A DNA stretch of 64,000 bases from Polytrichum commune (taxonomy: Eukaryota; Streptophyta; Polytrichopsida; Polytrichales; Polytrichaceae): positions 34,874,440 through 34,938,439 of the forward strand of contig OX485807.1 of assembly GCA_950295325.1 (NCBI GenBank). Reading direction: 5' to 3'. Shown here in pieces: positions 2,246 through 54,024 of the stretch (positions within the stretch are counted from its first letter, which is position 1; each line of letters starts with the position of its first letter). Both the position numbers and the translations under genes were made by a program. The notes under the pieces were generated by a model that had not been told where the DNA came from, ran no database searches, and worked only from the letters and a program-made list of their open reading frames with translations.

Positions 2246-4640
2246 ATTTATGTTAAAAGTTTCGGGTGAAAAATGAGTAGCTTCAGTCCTTGACCCACAT
2301 TTGAGAAGAAGGTGCAAAAAGTCCAAGAAAGGTTTGGTTGCATGTATAATAAGTAGCCATGGATTCGCATGAGCAAAATGGACAATTAGAGTTGTAGTCT
2401 TTCATAATAAAGGACACAGTCTCACTGTTCTACCGTTTTCTTGTTGCCCCAACTGATATGCTTATGTCTTGTGCAGTAGTTGGCCTTCGTGGGTTAGATT
2501 TGATGCTATGGGGCTTTAACATGTTGTTGTTTCGATCTTCAAAGCTCACTATTGTTGCTAGCTAGGCTACATGTTCATTGGTAGCATGATTCTCCAAAAA
2601 ACGAAAGCGCAATAGTAAATTATTGTGAGAGACTCGTAACTTTTAATTTTTTTTTAAAAAGGCACTCCACACCTTTAAGTCAGAGGGTGTAGCAAAAACA
2701 AAAACAAAAAAACCTATGGCCTAGACACGTTGTGCCCTATCCAAAGGCCGAAGGGTTTGTGCTCAAACTACAATCCAAGATCTTTAAGGCTTCGTGGCAG
2801 AATAACCATGGTTGTGTCATCATTACAACACTCTCCTTATGTCTACTATATTAAATCATATTCCTAACATATGTCTACAAAGAAATCCTTCAAAATCAGA
2901 GGAGTTTCAAAAGGTAGATTAAACAATTATTGCGAGCACGAATTTTCAAGAACATCCAAAATAAGCACCATTGCCGCTCATGCAAAGTGTGCATTGGAGT
3001 GTCAACCATTAATGAAATTGTATGGGAAATGGTCCAATACAACAAATTAAATTAAATTAAATTAAAAATATATATACAATAATGTTCATTATTTATAGAC
3101 TATTTGTATAGTAGGTATATATTCATAAAAATCAAATGTCTACGTTGCACTAGCCAGCTGGCAGTTATCTTTATATGAAGATTTGCAACGTGTTTAATCA
3201 GGTGGCCACCTGGACAAATGCGTCAGTGCACCACGTGTTCAATGTGTGTCGGTGGACATGGGTGTGGCCCAAAATGTATGATGCGCTGGAGGCCCCATTG
3301 ATAGACACGTCAGCAATATAAAATCTGTAATCATTATCACTGTGCCAGGGTGGAAATTAGATAAGTCAACGTACTACTGCAATGAGTGTCCGAGCTCCTA
3401 TATATTATATTTTTGTATATTAAACTGACAATGGCCAGTGATAAGGAGGATGAATACAACCACTTTACACTTAACCTTGAGGGCCCTCCTGCTGAGATAG
3501 ACAAATTATGTGATTCGTCAAAATGTTGGAGATGGTTCAAATTCGCTTTACACCACATCACGAGGGCATGACTGAGCAAATAAATTTGAATGAATGAAAA
3601 TCAACATGGCACCAAGTGGATAATGTTTCATTATCTACCGGATATTATGTTAGGCCCATAAAAAACAAATGGGTTTAATGTAAACTTAGGGACCATGACA
3701 ATCATTTAAATTGCCATTGGTTATGAGGTCCTATGTTTATGTGGTGGGTCCCATTTTGCCTACGGCTTTGGATTGTCCATAAAATATGGTGCAGGTCTAT
3801 CAACATATTTCACTTTCACTTTACACTAAGCTTGAGGAGTCGTCAATTGCAAAATTAGATTTATGTTTTCCACGGTATGGCATTTGGATGGGTTTCAAGA
3901 GCCCTTAGATTTTTAATGGTCACGGCTCTTGGTTTGCATGTAAAGTGGTCCTTAAGCCAACAAGGTCTCATAATTCCCGAGTCTAAAAGTGAACTTTGCA
4001 ACCGCTTGATGTCAACCCACGGTCAGCACTATTGCACATTGCAGGCGCATTACTGCCAATGAGGGCTCTCTATTCCAACACAAAAGAATTATTCTCCCCT
4101 CAAATTTGCCACGTGTCATGCTCACATTCGCTGAGACCACCTATATCCCACATGGAAACTACATTCTAGACATATAAAGATGAAATAGAGAGTCCTCTAT
4201 GGTAACATCATCTAAATCTATTGTATGATCTAAGTATGTATAATACTCCTTTGGTAAGATGAATTCACAAAATTTCAAACTCAATTTAATGATTTTAAAA
4301 ACCAATTTAGCAGTAGGTTCTACCAAATCACAAACCAAGTTCACTATATAGACAATCAAATTAACTTGAACATTCAACCAATTTCACTACATGTTCTGAA
4401 CAACTTCATGACTTGGTACCCATATTCACAACTTCACAAAATCGAGTTCATGAATTGTATAAGTTTATTTCACAAATAATGGTACATCATATATAAGATT
4501 CTCCTAGTCGCTCCCCACAACTAGCTCTAGATATCAAATTTCTATCAACCTCTCTTATCCTTGTACCATGTCCATAGTGATTGTTTGTACATCATTGATA
4601 ATGTGACCTAGTACTATTCAATGATTATAGAGATCATTAT
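2246..4640. other. no gene recognised
   Basis: Only an AAATT-type short repeat (about 3044-3066) and the 3.9 kb MITE fragment are identifiable. Open frames are short and lack recognisable domains. Confidence 0.55.
3890..3955. mobile_element. right-end fragment of the Tourist-like MITE
   Basis: TTTAATGGTCACGGCTCTTGGTTTGCATGTAAAGTGGTCC (quoted in part: ATGGTCACGGCTCTTGG) matches the terminal 45 bases of the 55.6 kb copy. No partner end was found nearby. Confidence 0.5.
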
Positions 4641-4641
4641 G

Positions 4642-5135
4642 TCAGACATGGCTTTTGATGTGTCCAAATAGACATGTTGCAACATTGAGAATTGGACTAT
4701 ATGATGGCAAACGGAAGTAGATGTGTCCAACATCTTCAAAAGCTTGTTGAATTTCACAAGATCTATGAAACAAGACATTGTCCATGGGGATGAACATTTG
4801 TCTATGAAGGCTAGGAATGACCTTGGTTTGAATGATTTCTAAGAACTTGTATGTATTGTAGGCACCAAGTGTGACATTGTGCACAATGACTCCTTCACGA
4901 CCAACTGCAACCACCAAAGATAAATTCCGACCCCTTTGAGTTGGATGCATTTGTTGCGATCTTTGTCCTCCACAAGCCTTTCAAAAGCTTTGGCCATGCT
5001 CCCGATAGTTTTGTAAGGATAAGCATAACGTTCATTTGTGTCAACATAAGATAGACCTTGATTAAAAATAGAATGTATGATTTGCGAGCAAAGTACGCCA
5101 TCTATGTGGTTATATCTACGCACATGACTAGGCAT
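4642..5135 (-). mobile_element. Tc1/mariner-type DNA transposon relic
   Basis: This codes the DDE half of an IS630/Tc1/mariner-like transposase. A strand-rich core runs through RGRNLSLVVAVGREG, then the second catalytic aspartate in FIPMDNVLFH, then the LPSYSPILN block that normally leads into the catalytic glutamate. Thirty-four residues after the aspartate the glutamate position reads Thr, so the copy is inactive. The N-terminal part (4950-5135) is readable only in other frames and has lost a clear helix-turn-helix. Terminal inverted repeats were not found. It looks much older than the Tc1 copy near 59.3 kb and belongs to a different branch. Confidence 0.7.
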
Positions 5136-5139
5136 ATCA

Positions 5140-7150
5140 ATTGAACTAAACCAATTTAGTTCTTTAATAAAGTTGTAAGCGAATTGAGACTACCATCAAT
5201 TTCTAAAAGTGTAGAAACTACGCATGCACAATCAATTTCTCAATGACAACTTGGGCCATATGTATCAGACACAATTCTTGTTGTAATGATTATCAAATAC
5301 AAACTATAGTAGAAAACCACATAAACCCTAAACCCTCCCGTGGTGAATGGCTTCGGCCATCCAAGATTATTTAAGGTGAATAATACTCCTACAACCACTG
5401 CTTTTAGGAAACACACATACACAACAGTTCAAACATCTTTCCTTTATGCCAAATTCTTGTCTTTGCTTGATAACATTGTCATGTCCCAATCTAATGACAA
5501 AGAGTCAACTACCGCTAGCCATATCTACTCATTTCAAAGGGAGACTCCCACATAGACCAAAATACATACGCCAACAAGAATTTGTGGCGACCAAGTTCTC
5601 AACAGTTGATCTAAATGTTGTGCGTCCACAACATAACATTTACAGGAACATTTCAAGCATTTGGGTTGTCTTTATTCCTAACACTAAACAACATCTATCT
5701 ATCTATCTATTATCGCCTCCCCAAAACATGTCGAACCTTCTTGAAGGAATTCAGCTACCACCGACTAAATGTTGCAAAATAAGAAGGCAAAGACTGTGAA
5801 ACGAGGAGGCGAGAAGTTGAGAATACGAGAACCACTTGGTTTGGAAGATTCATGAAGTTGTTAAAGGTAAAGCTTCGTTATCATAATTGAGGTGTGCCAC
5901 ATGTCAATTTGATTTAGGTGAATCGTGAACTAATCTAGAAGGTTCATGAAATTAGTTGGACACTCTAGTACCATGGGTTGGAAGATTCTTGCAGTAGCTT
6001 GGAACCTTCATGAAATTGACTTTGCACTTCCGCGAAGTCGTCTTAGCAAGGGAGTGTTTACAAGATGGAAATTATCATATGATGTGAGCCATATTGGTTC
6101 AAAAGTTAAAATATTGGACTTATAAGTTGGTCCGTCTAAATGCCCTAGACTTTTAAGTAATTTAAACTACAAGTAGTATGTTTAGGATGGATCCAGAAGG
6201 GCCCCACATACCCCAAATGACTACAATGTTTATGGTATTCAGAGGACAACCTCATAGTGTGGTCCAATATTTACCATAAATGGTATATAAGACATCATTA
6301 TGTACTAAATAACGTGGAACTTCATACTCGGGGGAATTGTTTTTGCATCAATCTCTCCACATATATTGATAAATTGGATTTCAATTTGTTGGATGCCTCT
6401 CATATGCAAATAATTTAGTTTTCATTCATTAGAACATTATTGTAACCTATAACACAAATATTTGATGTTATAAATTGTGGGTTGGAATATAGTGTGCATC
6501 CACAATAAACTCCATGATGTTTTTAGTGTTGATTTCCTAGTTTATAGTGTGGCCCACAATATTTACCATAAACAATGTAGTTTGTGCACTAAGTCTAAGA
6601 ATTATTACCTTATGTTTATTAACATGCATGAATTTGCACTTGAATAACATCATGATTTAGATCCCAAAGTTAACTGACATTTAAGTATATTTAGACAAAA
6701 TACTTATCTGAACATAATACGGGATATGCAGTTGTGGGGACAAAACATCAAACGACAACAACAAAAGCAACAACATAACAACCACGACTTTGAATATTTG
6801 TATTCCATGTTTGCCAACCATCACATTTGTGTAGGTTTGTTATCTAGTCTACGTCATATTGACAGTAGGAGTTGTCCAAAATTCATTTATAAATCCAAAT
6901 ATACTTAAGCCTAGTTAGTTGGTAGACCAAGGAATCGTGGCGTCTATGTAAACTCATCCATCATGAGGTGCAAACTATGTATTTCTATATGAAATGACTA
7001 TGGAAATGGCATCTAAGACTCCAAAATATACTTGGCATGATGGGAGGGAATTTAACCTTGGGGGTCAATCCTTGAGTTACTAGGATGCCTTAAGGTAGAT
7101 GGGTCCTACAAGGTTACCTTTTTTTCCTGACTTGGCCATTTCTCTAAGTA
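5140..7150. other. no gene recognised
   Basis: Contains an ATCT tetranucleotide run (5694-5712). The open frames at 5340-5800 lack recognisable motifs. Nothing else is seen. Confidence 0.55.
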
Positions 7151-11616: not shown

Positions 11617-13480
11617 AATTTTTTTTTTAAAAGAAATTGGGTACAAATTGAGAAATTCAATTACAAAGGTAACCCAAAAATACAACCAACCCGGGCGAGC
11701 CGACGCAACCCGAATGGAAATCAAGAAATAATGCTCATCTGCGGCCTATCCCTCCAAGTGACAACTAAGTTACTCCGAGCCATGATAAGGTTTTGGACTC
11801 CCCACGTAGAGTCGAATTCGTCAAGGACGTCTTGGTAGGCCACATCCAGGGCCTCTTCCAAATCCTTGAGTGTCCGTTTCCACTCAATCCTACCATAATT
11901 TTGCAGGGCGTCCCAAATGACTTGAAGTGTTTTCTCAACATGCCACTGCAAATCGTTGAAGACCATATCATTCCGTTGGCACCATATATTCCATGAAAGA
12001 CCACTCCTAAAAAAAAACCAGATGCGACTGAATTGTTTAAGTGTTTTGCACAAAGGTTGATAAAAAAGACATTGCATCATAGAGAAGGACTTCCGAGGGC
12101 TGAGATTCATCTTATTGGCAAAGAGTTGCCAAATGATGTTGGCCGCGTATTGCCACCCATGTTGAGCTAGTGGACAACTGTAAAACTTGTGTTCGATTGA
12201 TTCCACCGACTGGGGACCACATTGAGGACAACTTTTGTCAATCTCTATTGAGATTTTACCATGCCATTCGTTAACCGCAACCACCTTATGGATGACCGAC
12301 CAAAGGAAAATTGCCTCTTTTTGTGCCTTAGCTTTATTCCATATGATATTCCATTTGGGAGAGATTTCATTCCGCCATCTGTGTGGAATTGGCTTCTTGA
12401 GGGCAGTATGCTTAGTAGTCCACTTCCTCCCCTCTTTGGTTGAGTAAGCAAGGAAGGGGGTAACCTTTGGCCACCACCAACGAGCAAAGTCAAAGAAGAG
12501 TTGATCCAATTTCCCGTAGAACAAGTTGAAGGTAGTTTTGTCGTTCCCTCTTGTGAGGCTAGCCACCCTAATGCTCGTCATCCATCCCTCGAAAGCCATA
12601 GGTGGAATTGCATTCTTGGTGTTTGGTTTAATTTCAATAAAGGTAAAGTATTGTGAGCCAATGGTAGATTTGGGGAATGTATTCACGAACTCATCGCTAA
12701 ACTGCACTGGGCTAGGCCTATGCTCCTTGAGGTAACCTGCACAAATAACCCAATCCGGTAAAACATCCTCCGTACTCCTATAAAGGCCAACCCATTCTTG
12801 TGAGGTGAACTGGGCATTTTGTTGGTTGATCATCATGTCTCGGAAAGGTCCATAGGATCCAGTTAAATTGAATAAAAAATCTCGGTGGATTTCTTCCAAG
12901 GAAAACTTAACTCTAGCATCCTCCCAGTTTAGAAAATCATATTTCCATGGGTCCCATATATCCCTAAAATACTTTAATTTGCTCTTGTACAAGGTGTAGG
13001 CCGTGCTCATGATAGTGTCAAAATCTAAACCTTGGTATTCCGTCCTCTACCAAAGGTTGAGTTGCATAATGTCTTTTAAAATCGTTGGGGAGAGGTATGC
13101 AACCATTTTTGCCATCACCTTCCATGATTGGGTAATATGGTGCCAAGTTAAGGTCCCCTCCTTTGTAGAAAATTGTGGGGAAGAACAACCATAGGGAGGA
13201 TGGACCCCAACAACCATGGGAGGAAGGTTGTAACCGCTTGATGCGGTATCGCAAAATGCTTTGAAGGTTTGATTTGCCCCGATGTAAGGCTTGAATAACC
13301 CATTTGCTCTTGAGGTTGGGACTACCTTTGGAGTTGAGAAACATGCCTTAGTCTTAAGGGGCTTACTCTTTGAATGGCGTAGTGGAAGGAACGAGGGCCT
13401 CCAAATGATACTACAAGGATGGAGTACCACACATCGTCGTGGCGCCTCTAGGGGCAATGATCGTGTATAAGTGTCGAAAT
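11617..13480 (-). mobile_element. LINE, 5'-truncated 3' half (plant L1-type)
   Basis: On the - strand a reading frame runs from 13457 to 11721, interrupted only by one in-frame TAG at about 13044. The last 429 residues are continuous. It is the C-terminal part of LINE ORF2. Visible parts are a linker region with GTLTWHHITQSWKVM, the zinc-binding reverse transcriptase module (SPKWNIIWNKAKAQKEAIFL, then CPQCGPQSVESIEHKFYSCP at about 12170-12240), and the IWCQRNDMVFN block. The 3' untranslated part ends in a run of ten A (T-rich at 11619-11630 on the + strand). The endonuclease and RT palm are absent, consistent with 5' truncation on integration. I found no clear target duplication. Confidence 0.85.
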
Positions 13481-51593: not shown

Positions 51594-51668
51594 ATGTCTC
51601 GGCTGTTGAATTTGAAATGGAGATATGCTTTACAATTACCAAGATGTGCATCCCTCCCTAGACCTCGG
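51594..51668 (+). other. possible first exon of MCEE (transit peptide)
   Basis: From the ATG at 51594 an open stretch begins MSRLLNLKWRYALQLPRC. It is rich in Arg and Leu, has no acidic residues in its first 25, and can form an amphipathic helix typical of a mitochondrial presequence. A possible phase-0 donor (CGG|GTACAA) follows 51668, with an alternative (GAG|GTTGAC) after 51722. Both join in phase to the acceptor before 52319. Placement upstream of a normally mitochondrial enzyme supports it, but no transcript evidence is available here. Confidence 0.4.
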
Positions 51669-54024
51669 GTACAACATGATTCAACATGTGTTCCTTCAAT
51701 TGTTATATGTTATGCACATGAGGTTGACATTTATGAAAATGTTTCAATGAATCCATGAAAAAATGTTGGTGTTTAGGGTTTTTTTAAGTGTGAACAAAGC
51801 TTGACACATTATAATGGTTTCGCTCATTGCATCTTGAGATGAAAGTATAATGTAGATTAATAGTTTTTTATGATTGGTTTGTTTGTGTCATATACATATT
51901 TCTTAGAATCCTCTATATTTAGGCCTTGACATGCAATAAGGACTAGTAGCTTCCAAAGTCTTTTGATTTTGCTCTAAATGAATTTAGATTTACATAACAC
52001 AATCGATAGGGGCAACCTATGGAGTTAAAACAAATCATTTTCCCTTATTAGACGTCCCAATCATACATCCGTTAGACCTCCTATATTTTATTGCATGTCA
52101 CAATTGACCACCTTCTGGTCAATTCCATCATACCCCAAAAGCAAAGGCCACCGGGTGCCTACCAAGTTATATGTTTTTTTCATTATGTTGTAGCCACTAT
52201 TTGCATGACATAGATTATGAAAAGAAAATAAGAAAAGTTAACATGTGATGAAAAGTTGTATTTTATTCCCAAATGCATATGAGGTGTGAATGCCACCAAT
52301 GGGCCACAGTCATTGCAGGTGATGTGCACGCACGTTGGAACTGGTAGTGGAGGCCGGAGTGGTGGGACAACAGTGCGCAATCCTCCCGAAGACATACCCT
52401 TTGCCGTTAAGGGTTTGAAGCACATAGCTATTGCAGTCCCAAATATATCTTTAGCATCTGAGCACTATCGCACCGCCTTTGGAGCACAAGTTAGTGATCC
52501 CGTGGTATGTTTCATGAATAAAATTGCCATTAAGTAGTAACACTTTTCTATCACATTGGCCTTGATAACTAAATGCCATAACTAATTATGGTGAAACCAG
52601 AATATAAGCATTTCGTTGATGCACTCTTAAATTGCTCTCAAAGAAAAATAATGTCCTTCATTTATGGCGTTTTAATATTGATCACCTCAAGAGAGCAGAT
52701 GCAGCAAATGGGGTGTTTAAGGCCATGGTTGGGATGGACATAAAAATGATTAAATATGCAAAGCATTGCAATAATCTCGGGATAAGAAATAATGGTCTAG
52801 TATGTTGTGATGTGTAAATTGATTCTAATTTTTTAGGTTTTTCATCTACATAGTTAATCATTACTTATGTCCATTTATTTGTCTTCTAAGCAACACAAAT
52901 TGAAGAATGAGATATAAAAGTGTATCGCATTGGATTCGTGGATGCAGGACCAACCTGATCGAGGTGTTACAGTGGTTTATGTGAAGTTGTCAAATGTGGC
53001 AATTGAGCTTATGCACCCTTTGGGAGTAAAAAATACAATTGCAAACTTTTTGGACAAGAATCCAAAAGGCGGGATCCATCACCTTTGTTTGGCTGTAAGT
53101 TTGAAACACCTTGTCATATTGCATGTAGAAATAAAATGATTCTTGCCACGTTTGTATTTCAAAACAAATAATGTAGTTTATACATTGTTATTGTTGACCA
53201 TATTTGACAAGTGAACTATATTTAGTCACAATAGTCTTTTCCCGAGTCCAATTTGTTTGGACAATATATGAAGAGCTCAATTTGAGCATAAGTTGTGAAC
53301 CAATTATGAGTTTGCCAGATTTTATAGATTTGTGGTAGGTCAACTTGTGTCATTTTGGGCTCTTTTGTATGAAGAGTCTTCATTTACAAATTTGGGTGGG
53401 TGACTCCAGTCATCTTACAAACCATGTGGCAAAAAAATCAGGGTTATGTTTTATTCCTTGGAGCTAAAAATCACAACAATCTTAGGTTTAAGAAGGGGTT
53501 GAAGAAATATGAAATGTGTAGATGTAATTAAGATATAAAGAGTGAAAAGAAGTATTATGAAAATTGGTAAATCTAAGTCAACATTGGATATTGGCTAGGA
53601 TTGGATGGATGAGTCATGAAATAGTTTAAATGTAGTGTTCTTGTTGTGATTGTGATATAGGGTCTCTAGTGTGATGTTGTCCATTTAACAATTTTGAAAA
53701 ATTTACTAAAAGATGTGAGGGTTTGATCTTATTGCTTGATTGGTCGTTTTCTTGGTTGTTGTATTCTTTTAGTTGTAATTGCATAAATAATCCAAATCTA
53801 TAAAGCCGCCTCAAACAATTTCCATGCAAAAAGGACATGAATACCTAGACAAATTGCAGGTGGATGATTTGCATTCCGCATCACGACATATGGAAGACCT
53901 TGGTATAGAGACTCTCGGTGGTGAGGGACCTCCAAGGTGGGGAGTGGAGAGCCAACTACCTACACTTCTTTTGCATCCTAAGGACAATATGGGGGTTTTA
54001 GTAGAACTCCAACAAGCAAACTAG
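51594..54024 (+). CDS. MCEE: methylmalonyl-CoA epimerase, spliced (VOC superfamily)
   Basis: The enzyme interconverts (S)- and (R)-methylmalonyl-CoA between propionyl-CoA carboxylase and B12-dependent methylmalonyl-CoA mutase, normally in mitochondria. The secure coding exons are (52286 or 52319)-52504, 52948-53094 and 53860-54024 (TAG stop); both introns between them are phase 0 with clean GT-AG ends (GTATGT...GCAG and GTAAGT...GCAG). From the ATG at 52286 the product is 176 residues, the same length as human MCEE. Family blocks appear in order: LKHIAIAVPN (about 44-53), GAQVSDPV (66-73), IELMHPLG, GGIHHLCLA (114-122) and LLLHPKDNMGVLVELQQ (158-174). Expected metal ligands are present: His46, the His117/118 pair and Glu171. 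An acceptor at 52316-52318 and a basic open stretch at 51594-51668 suggest an extra first exon coding a transit peptide. The family call is firm; the N-terminus is not. Confidence 0.93.
52319..52504 (+). other. MCEE: MCEE exon with first VOC half
   Basis: This exon runs from the likely acceptor (GCAG ending at 52318) to the donor GTATGT at 52505. It codes a Gly/Ser/Thr-rich linker followed by the first beta-alpha-beta unit of the epimerase, including the metal-ligand histidine in LKHIAIAV. The reading frame also runs open upstream to an ATG at 52286, so translation could start there if there is no upstream exon. The exon ends in codon phase 0. Confidence 0.85.
52948..53094 (+). other. MCEE: MCEE central exon
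   Basis: This 147-base exon codes 49 residues and is phase 0 at both ends. It carries the ELMHPLG strand and the GGIHH metal-binding turn. The acceptor is GGATGCAG and the donor is GTAAGT, a near-perfect consensus. The intron before it is 443 bases and the one after is 765 bases. No stop codon or frame change is seen. Confidence 0.93.
53860..54024 (+). other. MCEE: MCEE last exon
   Basis: This exon codes 54 residues and the TAG stop at 54022-54024. It holds the second VOC helix, the LLLHPKD strand and the catalytic or metal-binding glutamate in VLVELQQ. Compared with human MCEE, the loop before LLLHPKD reads GGEGPPRWG, a bulkier version of the usual KIGAHGKP-type turn. The acceptor is AAATTGCAG. 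Confidence 0.93.

Follow-up and report, generated by a model that had tools for sequence, protein, structure and literature searches.

Plants are thought to degrade propionyl-CoA by a route that bypasses methylmalonyl-CoA. Methylmalonyl-CoA epimerase (MCE, or MCEE) is counted among seven enzymes unique to B12-dependent organisms in the available part of PMC8085122, and the accessible sections of PMC8142540 describe a mechanism that relies on two Glu residues as the pair of bases, with a carboxylate ligated to the metal. The portion of PMC9637915 at hand reports that propionyl-CoA carboxylase (PCC) activity is undetected in plants, and that PCC, MCEE and methylmalonyl-CoA mutase (MCM) were not found in the Polytomella genome. 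In Brassica napus, GLYI and HPPD were found but MMCE genes were not, and none is reported in Arabidopsis in the available text of PMC5422514. The accessible part of PMC11439496 records METH for hornworts and both CblB and CblJ for liverworts, but MCM for no streptophyte; the word ‘epimerase’ is absent from its main text. No report of MCEE in a moss or any other land plant was found in the open-licence literature. Here we describe a gene of this family in a stretch of 64,000 nucleotides from the moss Polytrichum commune (contig OX485807.1), hereafter called the window.

The gene lies at window positions 51594-54024 on the + strand. By profile score, ligand residues and tree position, its product is a member of the methylmalonyl-CoA epimerase family. 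The reading that we hold to be somewhat better than even is that of a functional moss nuclear gene encoding a metal-dependent VOC epimerase, probably mitochondrial, that would act outside B12 metabolism. To a wider proposal we give even chances: an MCEE lineage that is under selection, duplicated and changed in structure may persist in mosses, uncoupled from B12 after loss of the mutase and PCC, and may serve B12-free mitochondrial metabolism of branched- or odd-chain acyl-CoA or repair.

The spliced coding sequence is an open frame of four exons with a product of 190 aa, and all three introns are GT-AG and phase 0. The features of the gene are as follows:
51594-51668, + strand: exon 1; 25 codons, open, donor gtacaa; candidate mitochondrial presequence with a basic N-terminus
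51669-52318, + strand: intron 1; phase 0; the second intact copy on contig C2 has a phase-0 intron at most three codons away
52319-52504, + strand: exon 2; acceptor ttgcag, donor gtatgt; THVGTGSGGRxGG linker, first VOC strand and metal ligand H60
52505-52947, + strand: intron 2; phase 0; position identical in the C2 copy
52948-53094, + strand: exon 3; acceptor atgcag, donor gtaagt; metal ligands E107 and H132
53095-53859, + strand: intron 3; phase 0; position identical in the C2 copy
53860-54024, + strand: exon 4; acceptor ttgcag; HPKD motif and, before it, the altered lid loop (about residues 160-170); ligand E185 and stop

The open spliced frame, the clean phase-0 splice sites and the junctions 52504/52948 and 53094/53860 given in an earlier note on this DNA stand, while the three exons that it counted become four. 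Without splicing, the segment 51594-52504 contains 17 stops, and intron 1 is therefore required. Chance did not yield an open spliced frame, either when the exons were shuffled internally (0 of 20,000) or when window segments of the same lengths were drawn at random (0 of 20,000). The VOC domain is encoded by exons 2-4. Outside that domain, the glycine-rich THVGTGSGGRxGG linker (window 52319-52367, and exon 2 of the C2 copy), which separates it from the candidate presequence, is strongly conserved in both moss proteins.

The window protein scores 118.3 bits on the NCBIfam equivalog model for methylmalonyl-CoA epimerase, TIGR03081 (cut-off 114.95), and no NCBIfam runner-up exceeds 25 bits, where cut-offs are 120 or higher. 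In Pfam it matches Glyoxalase_4 (3.7e-19) and Glyoxalase (9e-12), with Glyoxalase_3 slightly below cut-off. Its best matches among solved structures are human MCEE (3rmu, 7e-32; 6qh4, 2.4e-31), followed by the MCE of P. shermanii; human MCEE is likewise the best solved match of the C2 copy. For residue comparisons we used an alignment of the best 80 of 570 confirmed prokaryotic relatives, found with one motif pattern; counts over 80 below refer to this set. The candidate metal ligands H60, E107, H132 and E185 are all present in the window protein, as the earlier note had anticipated. We take these to be ligands by the P. shermanii numbering (H12, Q65, H91 and E141). The first and last columns are invariant (H in 80/80 and E in 80/80); the second is E and the third is H in 77 sequences each, with Q in the remaining 3 in either case. 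The second catalytic Glu of the P. shermanii enzyme is presumably Glu48; in its column the human and window proteins have V, whereas the C2 copy has K. Two motifs of the window protein, HPKD and GVL.EL, are MCE-like.

A tree of VOC proteins had been proposed as a check on the identification, and in two such trees the moss copies fall with MCEs. The first combined the 80 prokaryotic sequences with both moss copies, human, P. shermanii and Mycobacterium (85 rows, 140 columns); its bootstrap was unsettled and a long-branch warning applies to it. In this tree the two moss copies are sister to each other (support 100/99), and they belong to a 36-row set (100/99) that also includes human MCEE and 33 sequences of Pseudomonadota and is separate from the other MCEs. 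The affiliation is with human and alphaproteobacterial/Magnetococcales-type enzymes. Terminal branches measure 0.25 for the window copy and 0.53 for the C2 copy. In the second tree, 33 of the 80 relatives were kept and two moss VOC proteins were added (40 rows). The set of moss, human and alphaproteobacterial-type sequences was retained (98/99), a tree constrained to a moss-plus-human clade exceeded the free one by 2 log units, and the added VOC proteins had very long branches (4.9 and 8.0). A VOC protein encoded in a single frame at 20.10 Mb of contig C3 (L128) of the same genome has weak matches to many VOC models, the best at 33.6 bits, far under the cut-offs.

The closest bacterial relatives, within the same set of 80, share 40-47% identity with the window protein. 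At the locus of the nearest one (L044), the epimerase gene belongs to an operon in which it is preceded by genes for the C-terminal domain of MCM, for MeaB, for PCC-beta and for a biotin carboxylase subunit; the PCC-beta has as its best solved match 3n6r, itself a PCC-beta (5.7e-240). When the flanks of the 80 loci were scanned for motifs, the MCM motif was found in 26, the PCC-beta motif in 40, and one or more of four pathway motifs in 53. The MCM motif lay in a frame of more than 600 codons at 19 loci; one such full-length frame (L056) was checked and is MCM by hidden Markov model (HMM). Among the 33 alphaproteobacterial-type loci, 16 carry the MCM motif and 20 the PCC-beta motif. About half of this branch therefore adjoins pathway genes, as expected for genuine methylmalonyl-CoA epimerases. 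Identity as MCEE, which the earlier note had claimed from the letters of the window, now has the TIGR03081 score, the trees, the ligand residues and the bacterial gene context in agreement with it.

A search of the moss genome with its own gene gave 12 matches at four places. One of them, on contig C2 from 9677636 to 9675164 (minus strand), is an intact copy with four exons, all of its introns being GT-AG and phase 0; exon 1 of this copy was identified by inspection of the DNA. Introns 2 and 3 occupy the same positions as in the window gene, on contig C5, and intron 1 lies within three codons. The C2 copy has a basic N-terminus of its own and a C-terminal extension of 14 residues. Exon 2 is the most conserved exon between the two copies, and 101 of 163 aligned residues are identical. 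Mismatches at codon positions 1, 2 and 3 number 49, 25 and 100 over these 163 codons (chi-square p 9e-17), and the NG86 method gave dN 0.285 and dS 2.95 over exons 2-4; one surplus codon at the end of each of C2 exons 3 and 4 faced gaps in this calculation and did not enter the counts. These figures indicate that both intact copies are under purifying selection, or have been so for most of their history.

The other two places hold decayed copies, one at about 3.094 Mb of contig C7 (L014, about 3600-5400) and one at about 5.726 Mb of contig C1 (L015, minus strand). Where aligned, they are 85-90% alike to the C2 copy at the DNA level, and they are broken by stops, a deletion or a frameshift. Exon 1 and the start of exon 2 were unmatched in the 8-kb stretches read. 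Both matches to C2 start at the identical point in exon 2, and the upstream sequence is similar between the two; hence, they probably derive from one older truncated duplicate.

The host assembly amounts to 407.8 Mb in 64 contigs. The window gene sits inside contig C5 (52.9 Mb); C1, C2, C3 and C7 measure 77.9, 70.3, 59.2 and 42.1 Mb, C4 is 51.1 Mb or longer and C6 28.4 Mb or longer, sizes which imply about seven chromosome-scale contigs; seven chromosomes may fit Polytrichales. Plastid gene content and PsaA matches point to a moss and not a flowering plant as the host. Plastid frames, read from their translations, include chlB, chlN, rpl21, rpoA and rbcL, and ARAGORN detected trnP-GGG and trnR-CCG on the plastid contig; cysA and cysT were not seen among plastid frames of at least 100 aa, parts of the contig being masked. 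PsaA matched structures 8htu (1723.9 bits), 6l35 (1703.6), 9lut (1698.1) and 7wfd (1651.1), of which we take the first two to be Physcomitrium photosystem I and the last to be an Arabidopsis entry. The premise of the earlier note that flowering plants are not known to use B12-dependent enzymes does not apply to such a host. The plastid contig itself (C8, L023-L037; 146,561 bases) represents a circle that has not been closed: its ends share a repeat of about 20.3 kb, and stretches of it are masked.

Partners of the epimerase in the B12 pathway were searched for in the host genome exon by exon, with introns ignored. Positive controls were recovered by the same method: the multi-exon genes for METE, the B12-independent methionine synthase (4.7e-109), and for MCC-beta, and also ACCase. 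The PF13669 search, however, overlooked the window gene itself because the gene is split by introns, and negative results for genes with short exons, MMAB above all, are weak for that reason. The negative result for MCM is strong, since MCM is long and conserved and METE was found as a control: the MM_CoA_mutase domain (PF01642) gave no candidate in the host genome, and a full-length bacterial MCM used as protein query gave a best E of 1.92. The B12-binding domain (PF02310) and the METH activation domain (Met_synt_B12, PF02965) had no match in the same genome, and the 13 matches of MeaB/MMAA (PF03308) at E of 1 or less were all below the 23.1-bit cut-off (best 20.6). Six Carboxyl_trans (PF01039) matches at three loci were read as homomeric ACCase, MCC-beta and plastid accD. 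At the MCC-beta locus, where one exon was searched, human MCCB scored 236.8 bits versus 69.6 for human PCCB, and no PCC-beta was found among the three loci. Two overlapping matches to Cob_adeno_trans (PF01923) are formally above cut-off, both in a simple-repeat frame; a short-exon gene could escape this search. We rejected this adenosyltransferase candidate, at 59.30 Mb of C2 (L011), as an artefact of a long simple repeat with several open frames and SQLSTLN/K units. METE is present on C1 (74585733-74670970; L016-L019) in five copies. Four of them make up two pairs, spaced about 65 and 84 kb, whose members score equally and face opposite ways; the arrangement resembles a large inverted duplication, or else a palindrome created in assembly.

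The earlier note had offered, as one possibility, that this lineage kept the route from propionate to succinyl-CoA. This was not borne out: MCM, the B12-binding domain, METH and PCC-beta were undetected and MeaB stayed below cut-off, and we rejected a retained B12-dependent route on these grounds. The other possibility in that note, an epimerase given a different substrate, may hold.

From sequence we infer both catalysis and a mitochondrial location for the window protein. Two His and two Glu would hold a divalent metal, which would ligate the acyl-CoA substrate and lower the pKa of its alpha proton; a 1,1-proton transfer would then invert the 2-methyl centre of the acyl-CoA. The substrate may be methylmalonyl-CoA arising from side reactions, or a near analogue. 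Possible sources of methylmalonyl-CoA are the promiscuous carboxylation of propionyl-CoA and the activation of methylmalonate. The role of the enzyme would be in B12-free branched-chain or propionate metabolism, or in metabolite repair, and not ahead of a mutase.

Several observations weigh against an epimerase of this kind. Human MCEE (198.4 bits) and the Magnetococcales protein (184.1 bits) score far above the moss copies on TIGR03081, which makes the moss protein a divergent member of the family, and the C2 copy, with 114.8 bits, falls 0.15 bits short of the cut-off. The lid loop before HPKD tends to G-A-x-G in the prokaryotic set (G in 79/80 at residue 164, A in 71/80 at 165, G in 60/80 at 167), but reads G-V-E-S plus one extra residue in the window protein and S-L-E-K in the C2 copy. 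Residue 173 is F in 80/80 and in the C2 copy, and L in the window protein. Given the change at F173L and above all those in the lid loop, methylmalonyl-CoA may not be the substrate. In the second tree, one of the added moss proteins (mossVOC_C3) was placed weakly among the MCEs and not outside them, and a grouping of the moss MCEEs with the two long-branched moss VOC proteins was not rejected by the approximately unbiased (AU) test (p 0.22, in a tree without a characterised glyoxalase); family scores argue against that grouping. The dS of 2.95 is saturated. The exon 1 product, in turn, is a candidate mitochondrial presequence on composition alone (basic, with no D or E): the amphipathicity of the presequences, taken as helical moment, was not above that of shuffles, of which 1733 of 2000 and 975 of 2000 were equally high.

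The same changes admit a different explanation, namely that the enzyme has been repurposed: fold and metal site would be unchanged, and the lid loop would direct the enzyme to a new substrate, for example a different CoA ester or an adduct of the glutathione/glyoxalase type. Loop 164-167, off consensus in both copies, the low TIGR03081 scores beside the human and Magnetococcales proteins, and the pathway partners undetected in the host genome all fit this idea. However, the glyox_I model gives just 23.8 bits for the window protein and 20.6 for the C2 copy against a cut-off of 120, and the H/E/H/E residues and both motifs are MCE-like, so that we regard repurposing as possible but doubtful. One might also consider the gene a relic of a lost B12 pathway that drifts and is intact by chance. 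The absence of detected partners (MCM, METH, B12-binding), the two further copies already broken and the low family scores are what a relic might leave; nevertheless, the codon-position bias between the intact copies (p 9e-17) makes drift less likely, a 190-codon open frame did not arise in the 20,000 trials, and the window copy has the shorter terminal branch of the two. We consider a relic improbable.

The converse idea, that the B12-dependent propionate route is intact and its other genes were missed or fall in assembly gaps, draws on the intron-blind searches: short-exon genes can escape them, as the window gene escaped PF13669, and the adenosyltransferase search returned the simple-repeat match alone. 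Against it, MCM is long and conserved and yet yielded no HMM candidate and no better protein match than E 1.92, the B12-binding search came back empty, multi-exon METE and MCC-beta were readily found, and no MCM is reported for streptophytes in the accessible part of PMC11439496. Its probability is very low. Lower still, and close to nil, is the probability that the gene is bacterial, whether as a contaminant or as a recent acquisition, for which the 40-47% identity to the nearest bacterial relatives might be invoked. Three GT-AG introns speak against it, as do the position inside a contig of 52.9 Mb and a diverged paralogue with common introns on another very large contig, and contamination was rejected on this evidence. 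The preferred reading thus remains a functional MCEE-family epimerase outside B12 metabolism.

With regard to its surroundings, the gene had been called the only conserved one in the window. This was checked in part: nine of the 24 longest frames were scanned in Pfam, and one gave a match (zf-RVT) while eight gave none. The matching frame, of 441 codons at 11724-13046 on the minus strand, is probably the 3' end of the reverse transcriptase of a long interspersed element (LINE). No match in the window attained the gathering score of an Rfam family, and ARAGORN found no tRNA there.

If the proposal is true, methylmalonyl-CoA or a related 2-methylacyl-CoA would be a real metabolite of this moss, or else the family took a new substrate. 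An MCEE match alone would then be no marker of B12 use. A model moss, provided that it has an orthologue, would allow both readings to be tested.

With glyoxalase I and YaeR the moss protein has the VOC superfamily domain in common, but the moss copies score 20.6-27.5 bits against cut-offs of 120-165. The MCE of P. shermanii (1jc4) belongs to the same fold family and agrees in three of four ligand residues; however, identity is 32%, and at the second ligand it has Q where the moss protein has E. Human mitochondrial MCEE (3rmu, 6qh4) is closer, with 47% identity in the aligned domain, the same H/E/H/E residues, and the HPKD and GVLVEL motifs. It differs in its loop, GAHGKP, to which the moss GVESQLP corresponds with one residue more, in the THVGTGSGGR linker, which is extra in the moss protein, and in its setting, as mutase and PCC-beta are undetected in the moss genome. 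The alphaproteobacterial/Magnetococcales epimerase of L044 belongs to the same clade, with 44% identity and the same ligand residues. Its gene, however, is encoded behind those for MCM, MeaB, PCC-beta and biotin carboxylase, whereas the moss gene stands alone.

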